In this document: in pieces, positions 27,376 to 32,036 of the stretch
Layout: every line of letters begins with the position of its first letter
Position numbering within the stretch: position 1 is the stretch's first letter
Source of the DNA: Chloroflexota bacterium
GTDB lineage: Bacteria; Chloroflexota; Dormibacteria; CF-121
DNA length: 38,554 nucleotides
Reading direction: 5' to 3'
Assembly (NCBI GenBank): GCA_005882775.1
Contig: VBDY01000139.1
Span: 1-38,554, forward strand
The notes under the pieces: generated by a model
Database searches by the model: none
What the model saw: the letters and a program-made list of their open reading frames with translations, nothing else
What the model was told of the DNA's origin: nothing
Made by a program: the position numbers and the translations under genes

Positions 27376-28286
27376 GGATCGCTTCACTCCTCCCCAGCGC
27401 CACCGAGATCGTCTGCGCGCTGGGCCTCGAGGACCAGCTCGTCGCCGTGACCCACGAGTGCGACTTCCCGGCGTCGGTCGCCGGCAAGCCGGTGGTGACC
27501 GCCAGCTTGATCGAGGGCAACGGGTCGAGCTCTGAGATCGATCGCCATATCCGCCGGCTGGTCCACGCTGGGAGCAGCATCTACCGGCTCGATGCCGACC
27601 GGCTCCACGCGCTCAGGCCCGACCTGATCCTCACCCAGGAGCTCTGTGCCGTCTGCGCTGTCTCGTATCCGATTGTTGAAGCGGCCGCTCGCCGGCTGGA
27701 CGAGTCAACCCAGCTGGTATCGCTCGAACCGGAGCGGCTGGAGGACGTCTTCGGCCACATCGCCCTGGTCGCCCGCCTGGCCGGCCGCCCGTCGGCTGCA
27801 TCGCCCATCATTGGCAGCCTTAAGGACCGGATCAAGGCTGTCCGCGGGCTGCTCCAAGGGGTCGTTCCGGCGCGTGTCGTCTGTCTGGAATGGCTTGACC
27901 CCCTATACAGCTGCGGTCACTGGACGCCCGAGCTGGTCGAGCTGGCGGGTGGGCTCGAGCTGCTTGGCGTTGCCGGCCGCCCGGCGGAGCGGGTTGCCTG
28001 GGACGACGTTCGAGAATCCGATCCTGACGTTCTGGTGGTGATGGCCTGCGGCTTCTCGCTATCGAAGAGCCAGGCCGAGGTGGCGTCTCTGGCGGGCCGC
28101 CCCGGTTTTGATGAGATGCGCGCGGTGCGATCCGGCAGGGTCTACGTTGTCGATGGGAACGCGTTCTTCAGCCGGCCGGGTCCTCGGCTCGTCACCAGCG
28201 TCGAGATCCTGGCCGGCCTGCTTCATCCCGACGTCGTACCGCCGCCGGCCGCGAGCGCGGCCGCCCGCTGGAGCCGGCCGGTTTAG
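27372..28286 (+). CDS. BtuF-like cobalamin/Fe3+-siderophore-type binding protein without signal peptide
   Basis: RIASLLPSATEIVCALGLEDQLVAVTHECDFP ... LRPDLILTQELCAVCAV; GTGA overlap with MBL gene. Confidence 0.87.
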   Translation: MRIASLLPSATEIVCALGLEDQLVAVTHECDFPASVAGKPVVTASLIEGNGSSSEIDRHIRRLVHAGSSIYRLDADRLHALRPDLILTQELCAVCAVSYPIVEAAARRLDESTQLVSLEPERLEDVFGHIALVARLAGRPSAASPIIGSLKDRIKAVRGLLQGVVPARVVCLEWLDPLYSCGHWTPELVELAGGLELLGVAGRPAERVAWDDVRESDPDVLVVMACGFSLSKSQAEVASLAGRPGFDEMRAVRSGRVYVVDGNAFFSRPGPRLVTSVEILAGLLHPDVVPPPAASAAARWSRPV

Positions 28287-28444
28287 CCGCCGTAGGCAAA
28301 GCGGAAGAAGGCGGCGGCGATCAGGATCAGAAGGATCCCACCCCCCAGCAGGAGCAGTCCGGCGCCGATGACGAATCCGGCCATCCGCGCAAAGGCGAGC
28401 TTTAGCTCCTCCTCGGGCGTTTGCCCTTCGGGATTGTCCATCAT
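28283..28444 (-). CDS. Small single-TM hypothetical protein (53 aa)
   Basis: ATGA overlap (28441-28444) with the upstream gene; MMDNPEGQTPEEELKLAFARMAGFVIGAGLLLLGGGILLILIAAAFFRFAYGG. Confidence 0.6.
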   Translation of the reverse strand: MMDNPEGQTPEEELKLAFARMAGFVIGAGLLLLGGGILLILIAAAFFRFAYGG

Positions 28445-28905
28445 CGAACCGGCAGCTGGTCGTGGTCGTCCGTGAGCGTCTCCCCGCCGTCCGCGACCCA
28501 ATCTTTGAACGGACCACGCGGGGGCCCGAGATCGGACGGTGCCCAGCGGTCAATCTGGTGCATGGCGTCCAGGAGCAGCTCCTCGAGCTGGCGCTGGCTC
28601 GCCCGGCGGTCGAACGCGCCCGCCTTGGCCGAGACCAGGCGGCGCGTCCGCGAGGTCAGGTCGTCCACCCACCAGGTGGCGCTGACGTCGAGCAGATGTC
28701 CAGTCCGCTCCCGGTAGCTGACGGTCAGCCGAGCCTCGCCCCCCTGTTGCCGCGCGCAACGTAATTCCCAGGCGGCCTTTCCCCGTCGGTACCGATCGAT
28801 GACAAAACCGTTTGTTCGGGCGAAGGCTTCAAGCGTGGGCGCCACCGCCCGAAACGCCTCGATAATCTCCACCGGCACGGGGCTCAGTCTCGTGAGCGGT
28901 CGCAC
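28441..28905 (-). CDS. Hypothetical protein
   Basis: Intact ORF starting GTG 28905, with TAGAAT-N6 upstream and ATGA coupling downstream. Confidence 0.75.
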   Translation of the reverse strand: MRPLTRLSPVPVEIIEAFRAVAPTLEAFARTNGFVIDRYRRGKAAWELRCARQQGGEARLTVSYRERTGHLLDVSATWWVDDLTSRTRRLVSAKAGAFDRRASQRQLEELLLDAMHQIDRWAPSDLGPPRGPFKDWVADGGETLTDDHDQLPVR

Positions 28906-28911
28906 CGGATC

Positions 28912-28925
28912 ATTCTAGGTAGAGT
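28912..28925. promoter_or_regulatory. Back-to-back -10 boxes: TAGAAT (minus, 28912-28917) and TAGAGT (plus, 28920-28925)
   Basis: CAC-cggatc-ATTCTA-gg-TAGAGT-gagatc-GTG; each box is exactly 6 nt from its start codon. Confidence 0.65.
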
Positions 28926-28931
28926 GAGATC

Positions 28932-29345
28932 GTGGTCTCGTTCAACGAACCGGCGACCGTCGAACGGATACTCTCGACCGCGAAGACGATCGCGGTGGTT
29001 GGACTGAGCCCGAATCCCCATCGTCCAAGCCACGGGGTGGCTCGATACCTGCAACGCGCCGGGTACCGGATAATTCCCGTGAACCCGGTGGCCGATGAGG
29101 TCCTCGGGGAGCGAGCCCGGGCCTCCCTTCTGGAAATCGCGGAGCCGGTGGACGTGGTCGATGTCTTCCGCCGGGCGGAATTCGTGTCGGATATCACCGA
29201 TCAGGCGATCGCGATCAAGGCCAGGGCGCTCTGGCTACAGGATGGCGTTGTCGATCCGAAGAGCGCCCAGCGCGCACTCGATGCCGGCCTGGACGTGGTG
29301 ATGGACGATTGCATGATGCGCCGCCACGCGCGGCGGGCCGACTGA
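28932..29345 (+). CDS. CoA-binding domain protein (YccU-like)
   Basis: TIAVVGLSPNPHRPSHGVARYLQRAGYRIIPVNPVADEVLGE ... ALWLQDGVVDPKSAQRALDAGLDVVMDDCMM. Confidence 0.93.
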   Translation: MVSFNEPATVERILSTAKTIAVVGLSPNPHRPSHGVARYLQRAGYRIIPVNPVADEVLGERARASLLEIAEPVDVVDVFRRAEFVSDITDQAIAIKARALWLQDGVVDPKSAQRALDAGLDVVMDDCMMRRHARRAD

Positions 29346-29375
29346 GCCAGCCGTCTTCCGATCAGGCAGGAAACG

Positions 29376-30533
29376 TTAGTGGCGTCGCATTCTCCTTTGC
29401 ATGCGCTGTTCTGCGATCGCCTCGGCCGCCTGCCGGGTGCCCAAGTGGTCCCGATGCGATCGCTCCAGCAGCTCCCGCGTGGTATCCCGGAGCTGCTCAC
29501 GCGTGACGCTGAAGATTGATTCGAGGCTGGGCTCCAGCCGTCGCTCCAGGAGGCCGCAGAAGAGGAAGGCGGCCGCCGCGTTCGTGACGAAGTCCGGCAG
29601 GACCACCACGCCGCGCCGCTCGAGCGCGCACTCGGCGTCGGTGGTGACCGGGTTGTTCGCCCCCTCAGCCAGCAGCCGGCAGCGGACGCTCCCCTGATTT
29701 CCCTCGTGGATCGCACCCCCGATCGCGGCCGGGATCAGGATGTCAACGGGTTGCGTCAACCATTCGGGCTCCGGAACCTGGCGGGTGGATGCAGGGAGGC
29801 GGGAGCGGTCGATGTGGCCGAAGCGGTCGCGGATGCTGAGCAAGTGTGGAATGTCGAGTCCGGCCTGATCGACTACCGTGCCTTCTATGTCAGCGACCGC
29901 GATGAAGCGGGCGCCGGCGCGATGGAGGTAGCGAGCGGCCGCCCCGCCCACGTTTCCGAAGCCCTGCATGGAGACGGTCGCACCCCGGATGTCGAGACCC
30001 ATGACGTCGGTCGCCTCCATGGTGACCTCGGCCACGCCGAACCCGGCGACCAGCTCAGTGATGGCGACCCCTTCACTGGTCAGGCTGAGCGCGGCCCGGA
30101 CTCGAGCCAGCCCGGCGCCGCCCTCGCTCTTGAAGCCGGCCTGCAGTGGATGGGTGAGCCCGATGACCTGGCAGGCGGCGACGATGTCGTCCTCTCGAGT
30201 GCCCAGGTCGGCGCCGGTTGCGTAGCGATCGGCGATGTCCGGCTTGATCGCTTCCAGGAACCGGCGAAGGACGTCCGGCGCCTGGGGCGATGCCGGGTCG
30301 CAGTCTATCCCTGACTTCGCGCCCCCGTAGGGGATGTCCAGGATGGCCATCTTGTACGACATGGTCCGAGCCAGGCCGGCAACCTCGGCGACCGTAACGC
30401 CGGGCCGCATCCGGATTCCACCCGAGCACATCCCACCGATCAGGCGGTCGATAACGAAGTAACCCCTGGCCGGAGTCAGCGGATCGCGCCACTCGGTGAC
30501 GAGGTAAGGGGACGGTGCCGAGGGCACGGTCAA
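29376..30533 (-). CDS. Glu/Leu/Phe/Val dehydrogenase
   Basis: GGIRMRPGVTVAEVAGLARTMSYKMAILDIPYGGAKSGI; VSMQGFGNVGGAAARYLH; LLAEGANNPVTTDAE. TTG 30533 overlaps the CsaA-like stop; GTG 30527 is an alternative. Confidence 0.93.
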   Translation of the reverse strand: MTVPSAPSPYLVTEWRDPLTPARGYFVIDRLIGGMCSGGIRMRPGVTVAEVAGLARTMSYKMAILDIPYGGAKSGIDCDPASPQAPDVLRRFLEAIKPDIADRYATGADLGTREDDIVAACQVIGLTHPLQAGFKSEGGAGLARVRAALSLTSEGVAITELVAGFGVAEVTMEATDVMGLDIRGATVSMQGFGNVGGAAARYLHRAGARFIAVADIEGTVVDQAGLDIPHLLSIRDRFGHIDRSRLPASTRQVPEPEWLTQPVDILIPAAIGGAIHEGNQGSVRCRLLAEGANNPVTTDAECALERRGVVVLPDFVTNAAAAFLFCGLLERRLEPSLESIFSVTREQLRDTTRELLERSHRDHLGTRQAAEAIAEQRMQRRMRRH

Positions 30534-30880
30534 AAGACTCGGGCGCCCAGGGGAACATCGAGGTCGGGGTGGAGCAGGACGATGGCGCCCGCCTCGTCCG
30601 GCACGCCCAGGACCAGGACTTCCGATCTGACCGGTCCGACCTGGCGGGCCGGAAAGTTGGTGACGGCGACCACCAGCCGCCCGCGGAGATCCTCGGGCAT
30701 GTAGTGGGTGGTCAGCTGGGCGCTCGACCGCCGCCTTCCGATGACCGGGCCGAAGTCGATGACCAGCCTGTAGGCGGGCTTACGCGCTTGTGGAAACGCT
30801 TCCGCCTCCGCGATTCGGCCAACGCGCATATCGACTTTCTCAAAGTCCGAGATGTCGATCCGGGCGTTGGCGTCCTCCAA
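30530..30880 (-). CDS. CsaA-like tRNA-binding-domain protein
   Basis: ISDFEKVDMRVGRIAEAEAFPQARKPAYRLVIDFGPVIGRRRSSAQLTTHYMPEDLRGRLVVAVTNFPARQVGPVRSEVLVLG. TTG 30880 proposed from TACACT-N7; ATG 30907 is an alternative. Confidence 0.87.
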   Translation of the reverse strand: MEDANARIDISDFEKVDMRVGRIAEAEAFPQARKPAYRLVIDFGPVIGRRRSSAQLTTHYMPEDLRGRLVVAVTNFPARQVGPVRSEVLVLGVPDEAGAIVLLHPDLDVPLGARVF

Positions 30881-30905: not shown

Positions 30906-32036
30906 ATGCCGCTGACGAGCCAGGAAATGCGCGATGTGTTTCCCATCGCGCGGCGGTACGCCTACCTTGACCACTCCTCGATCGCGCCTCTGGCGACCCC
31001 GGTCCGCACCACCATGGAGGTCTTCTTGAACCGCCAGTCAGAGGAGCCCTTCGACCTCGACCATTGGGAGCGGCTGCGGATCCAGGTGCGGGCACGGATC
31101 GCGGAGCTGGTCGGGGCGCGCCCCGAGGCAATCGCCTTCATCAAGAACACCACCGCCGGGCTGGGCCTGGTAGCCGCCGGGCTGGATTGGCGTGAGGGCG
31201 ACAACATCGTTGGAGTAGCAGGCGAGTTCCCGGCCAATATCTACCCCTGGCTCGGCCTGAAGGATCGAGGCGTGACTCTGCGCCTCTGCCCGCACGACGC
31301 CGGCCGGGTGGACCCCAAGGCGCTGCTCGGTCTCTGCGACGACCGCACCCGGGTGGTGGCGATCAGCCTGGTGCAGTTCTGGAGCGGGTTCCGCAGTGAT
31401 CTCAAGGCGCTCTCGACTGGCCTGCGCTCGACGAACACCCTGCTGGTGGTGGACGGCATACAGGCCGTCGGTGTGCTGCAGGTGCAGCTCGGACAGCTGG
31501 CGGTTGACGTGCTGGCCTGCGGTGCGCAGAAGTGGATGCTCGGCCCGACCGGGATCGGCTTTGCCTATCTCAGCCAGCGAGCCCTGGACCGCGTGCGGCC
31601 GGTGGTGATCGGGACCGATAGCGTCGTACACGACCGCGAGTATTTCGAATACGACCTTACCTTCAAGGCAGATGCGCGACGCTTCGAGGAAGCCGCTCCC
31701 AACTGGCCGGGAATCCTGGGCATGGGAGCTGCGGTCAACCTCTTGGTGCGCGCCGGGCTGGCCGCCGTGGAGACCGGGGCGCTCCGGCTCGCCGACCGCC
31801 TCCGCGATGAGCTCATAAGCCGGGGCTTCAGGCTGGTATTCAGACCGGAGCGGCAGGGAGAGAAGTCTGCGATCGTCTCTTTCCGTCATCCGCGGATGGT
31901 GCCAGCCGAGGTGCATCGGCGCCTCCACGATGCCGGGATCATTCTTTCCCTGCGAGGCGACTTCCTTCGGGCTTCCCCGCATTACTACAACAACGACGCG
32001 GACATCGACCGGTTGCTCGAGGCGCTTCCCCGATGA
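30906..32036 (+). CDS. Aminotransferase class V family protein
   Basis: AYLDHSSIAPLATPVRTTME ... IKNTTAGLGLVAAGLDW ... LLVVDGIQAVGVLQVQLGQLAVDVLACGAQKWMLGPTGIGFAYLS (PLP lysine in CGAQKW). Confidence 0.9.
   Translation: MPLTSQEMRDVFPIARRYAYLDHSSIAPLATPVRTTMEVFLNRQSEEPFDLDHWERLRIQVRARIAELVGARPEAIAFIKNTTAGLGLVAAGLDWREGDNIVGVAGEFPANIYPWLGLKDRGVTLRLCPHDAGRVDPKALLGLCDDRTRVVAISLVQFWSGFRSDLKALSTGLRSTNTLLVVDGIQAVGVLQVQLGQLAVDVLACGAQKWMLGPTGIGFAYLSQRALDRVRPVVIGTDSVVHDREYFEYDLTFKADARRFEEAAPNWPGILGMGAAVNLLVRAGLAAVETGALRLADRLRDELISRGFRLVFRPERQGEKSAIVSFRHPRMVPAEVHRRLHDAGIILSLRGDFLRASPHYYNNDADIDRLLEALPR

Follow-up and report, generated by a model that had tools for sequence, protein, structure and literature searches.

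Leaderless genes of bacteria carry a published mark, a TANNNT hexamer placed about 12 bp ahead of the start (the TA-led genes), and such genes amount to 4.0-5.7% in 4 of 12 Chloroflexi genomes (PMC3160421). In Deinococcus the TANNNT hexamer acts as the -10 region (PMC12340547). Bacterial bidirectional promoters with shared -10 elements have been described by Warman and colleagues, with divergent starts that lie 7-25 bp apart and favoured distances of 10, 18 and 23 bp (PMC12825309, PMC10268837). For five such promoters tested in E. coli, basal activity proved too low for polymerases to compete, and repression of one direction can follow when the opposite one is strongly activated (PMC12825309).

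Here we analyse a divergent gene pair from a Chloroflexota bacterium, lying in a window of 38,554 nucleotides (contig VBDY01000139.1, positions 1 to 38,554). The two genes, referred to as H and Y, resemble the leaderless TANNNT genes described previously, including those of Deinococcus-Thermus (PMC3160421; PMC12340547), in the box, its distance to the start, the absence of a Shine-Dalgarno sequence and of a -35 element, and the high-GC genome, whereas the Chloroflexota family of the window lies outside the coverage of both studies. As in the bidirectional promoters, -10 elements are predicted to lie next to one another on opposite strands. Were both transcripts to begin at the GTG codons, the starts in the window would be 27 bp apart, just beyond the 7-25 bp range. 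The two boxes do not overlap in the window, which is therefore not itself classed as a shared -10 bidirectional promoter; nine relatives, in which the boxes overlap by 2 bp, do fit, and their form, with a shared TA and 23-25 bp between start codons, agrees with the published 23-bp class.

Results

Anatomy of the intergenic region

Read directly from the sequence, positions 28903-28934 are CAC CGGATC ATTCTA GG TAGAGT GAGATC GTG, so that a 6-nt spacer and a TANNNT hexamer for each gene, with the 2-bp gap between the hexamers, make up the whole 26-bp intergenic region (28906-28931; Table 1). For both genes the first T of the hexamer is 12 nt upstream of the GTG. Going upstream in frame from either GTG, the first stop encountered is the TAG within the gene's own box, at that same distance, which means that neither open reading frame can begin farther upstream. 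No Shine-Dalgarno sequence, taken as any 4-nt piece of AGGAGG from -20 to -4, precedes H or Y, and no sigma-70 -35/-10 pair was found in 27500-30500. An earlier note on this DNA had described GTG starts, 6-nt spacers and boxes 2 bp apart within 26 bp, all of which match the sequence, and had called the region mirror-symmetric, which is true only approximately: the boxes form a dyad at 5 of 6 positions and the spacers are without symmetry. The plus-strand gene Y, a YccU-like CoA-binding gene in the same note, matches Pfam CoA_binding_2 (Table 1).

Table 1. Coordinates of the H-Y region and of two further divergent pairs in the window.
Feature	Position	Strand	Basis or remark
H, conserved protein without known function, 154 aa, GTG at 28905	28441-28905	minus	ORF and family homologues
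H spacer, 6 nt, box to GTG at 28905	28906-28911	minus	6-7 nt in 16 genomes, sequence variable
H box, putative -10, TAGAAT	28912-28917	minus	sequence; T1, A2, A4, A5 and T6 invariant in 16 genomes
Inter-box gap, 2 bp	28918-28919		-2, +11 or +26 bp in relatives
Y box, putative -10, TAGAGT	28920-28925	plus	sequence; T1, A2, G3 and T6 invariant in 16 genomes
Y spacer, 6 nt, box to GTG at 28932	28926-28931	plus	6-8 nt in 16 genomes, sequence variable
Y, YccU-kind CoA-binding protein, 137 aa, GTG at 28932	28932-29345	plus	Pfam PF13380 CoA_binding_2, E 2.8e-40
Second compact pair: CsaA-type tRNA-binding protein (TTG) / class V aminotransferase (ATG)	30880 / 30906	minus / plus	boxes AGTG-TA-GTGT share TA
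Third pair: transglycosylase / PdxS	10068 / 10106	minus / plus	boxes TACAAT, TAGAAT, 12-bp gap

Conservation of the genes and of their boxes

H and Y are both real genes. Homologues of H occur in genomes of the same Chloroflexota family at mostly 48-65% identity, and its AlphaFold model, a confident one (mean pLDDT 84.5), has the topology helix, five strands, helix. No Pfam, NCBIfam or PHROG family was found for H above the cut-off, and the structure search returned nothing significant (best E 0.085). A weak likeness of H to Deinococcus DR_1245 (4h5b; probability 0.84, TM 0.44) is not significant and is given no weight.

The divergent pair is retained in 16 of the 18 genomes examined from this family, the exceptions being G001, with H and Y on separate contigs, and G016, with neither gene. 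These 16 are far from being independent observations: 14 belong to one genus, and the window and L016 each represent a further one. Both boxes are present in every genome that keeps the pair. The positions that define TANNNT (T1, A2 and T6) are unchanged in all 32 boxes, with the H box reading TAGAAT or TACAAT and the Y box TAGAGT, TAGGGT or TAGATT, while the spacers differ in sequence at each position. The spacer lengths given in Table 1 hold throughout, apart from the Y start of L011, where the Y reading frame is shifted and the box precedes an out-of-frame GTG, one base short, possibly through an assembly error. In L016, the third genus, the H box lies 6 nt before an ATG (TAGAAT CGGTCG ATG), a start that is read in a different frame from the remaining gene, as if the assembly had dropped a base. 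Orthologues of Y outside the family have no such box, and the arrangement is therefore taken to be local to the family.

This conservation bears on whether H or Y could be mis-called, or carried on a leadered transcript from a distant promoter, with its box there by coincidence. That H has no named family leaves some room for such a reading, but we hold it to be very unlikely given the conservation of the H protein across the family and its modelled fold, the invariance of the three defining positions in both boxes and the position of the H box in the third genus (L016), there too 6 nt before a start codon.

The H homologue of G001 stands in divergent orientation to a class V aminotransferase homologue (L044, 900-1480), a local rearrangement; the homologue of this aminotransferase in the window is 2 kb away from H.

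Variation in the gap between the boxes

The gap between the boxes is -2 bp in nine genomes, +2 bp in the window, +11 bp in L016 and +26 bp in five genomes. The -2 form reads ATTGTAGAGT, with TA common to both boxes. The history of the gap was read from a DNA tree of five neighbouring genes, the Y-protein tree being unresolved. All five +26 genomes group in a single clade (100/100), next to which stand two -2 genomes (99.9/98); it follows that the boxes passed between the fused and the separate state two or more times in the family. One fusion with a later split, or two fusions, fit the tree about equally well. We had at first supposed that a deletion had joined the two boxes; given the equal fit, no direction of change is claimed. 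A gap that varies, with constant boxes and constant distances from box to gene, argues against selection on the geometry between the boxes; selection appears to have kept each promoter and the distance to its own gene, and not the distance of one promoter from the other.

The partial dyad of the window would also be expected if the near-palindrome ATTCTAGGTAGAGT were not a pair of -10 boxes but an operator bound by a dimeric repressor. We regard this as exceedingly improbable, since relatives do not keep the spacing of the dyad, its halves overlapping there by 2 bp or standing 11-26 bp apart although the box-to-start distances are kept, and since TANNNT at 6-8 nt is also found at many unrelated genes.

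Mutual exclusivity or reciprocal regulation of H and Y, as the earlier note had suggested, would call for an evolved switch in which the boxes are held close, a polymerase on one promoter silences the other, and the two genes are reciprocally expressed. Boxes 2 bp apart in the window and sharing TA in nine relatives are what such a switch would use, as one polymerase would span both. The main argument against it is the gap itself, which takes four values in the family and has moved between joined and separate forms at least twice; furthermore, no functional link between H and Y is known, no regulator gene was noticed adjoining the pair, and competition was not seen at basal activity in the bidirectional promoters measured in E. 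coli (PMC12825309). We therefore consider a switch distinctly unlikely and that suggestion unsupported.

The TANNNT signal across the genome

Genome statistics were drawn from stretches that add up to 1.09 Mb of the 2.85 Mb, with genes called by a simple method based on codon usage. Among 925 genes, TANNNT precedes the first start codon 52 times at 6 nt and 29 times at 8 nt, against 1-15 times at other distances, and the peak is absent at later start codons. The excess at 6 nt may in part be an effect of in-frame stops, an effect that touches neither the 8-nt peak nor the TAYNNT boxes, a subset seen 13 times at 6 nt and 18 times at 8 nt. The third base of the box is G, giving an in-frame TAG stop, in 27 of 58 boxes at 6 nt and shows no such tendency at 7-9 nt, which may reflect either a real preference or first-start bias. 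A Shine-Dalgarno-like motif accompanies 13 of 136 genes with a box versus 269 of 885 without. Divergent pairs supply 222 gene fronts, of which 57 have TANNNT at 5-8 nt, compared with 8-38 for eleven control patterns. These excesses, with the presence of both boxes in all 16 genomes that retain H-Y, place the two boxes beyond coincidence. As judged from sequence, leaderless genes across the source genome are signalled by TANNNT at 6-8 nt. This peak, the conservation of the boxes and the lack of a Shine-Dalgarno sequence on either side give good support to the earlier reading of H and Y as leaderless genes whose putative -10 boxes face each other.

Boxes occur on both sides in 9 of 111 divergent pairs, and in 6 of those 9 the start codons are at most 60 bp apart. 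About 7 two-sided pairs would be expected under independence (57/222 sides), so the 9 observed are not clearly more, and selection for pairing itself is therefore not claimed. The AT-rich control T...AT, many of whose sites are also TANNAT boxes, gives 4 tight pairs versus 6 for TANNNT, and the number of tight pairs taken by itself is therefore a weak argument.

Two of the six tight pairs, besides H-Y, are in the window (Table 1). The overlap of boxes at 30880/30906 is the same in 10 of 10 genomes compared, the source genome included, and in the aligned sequences the TTG is 7 nt from the minus-strand box. These data suggest that the aminotransferase starts at 30906 rather than at the upstream ATG at 30852. 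At the third pair, the PdxS box, 6 nt from its GTG, is retained in several relatives. Elsewhere in the source genome (L107, 11037-11058) a divergent pair has interlocked boxes (CATAGAATAGTCC) and start codons 21 bp apart.

Discussion

We propose that the H-Y region consists of two separate minimal promoters, set back to back, which start leaderless mRNAs of H and Y, a reading that we hold to be highly probable. Each promoter would be recognised by the housekeeping sigma factor through its TANNNT -10 box, with no recognisable -35 element, and each mRNA would begin at the GTG 6 nt downstream of the box, or within 1-2 nt of it. RNA polymerase would load in either direction, but never in both simultaneously. 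Such steric exclusion of two polymerases, which the earlier note had put forward, is plausible, and the same would apply to any divergent promoters lying so close. At the low occupancy that is ordinary for promoters, exclusion would have little effect, with both H and Y expressed and any competition between them probably not meaningful.

By itself the H-Y intergenic region is compact but ordinary. That the family makes recurrent use of fused leaderless pairs, with lineages alternating between fused and separate forms and so altering the strength of interference between the genes, we consider unlikely. If the predicted starts are right, the family would offer the same two leaderless promoters as a natural series with gaps of -2, +2, +11 and +26 bp, and this series could be used to measure how interference between polymerases depends on promoter spacing.
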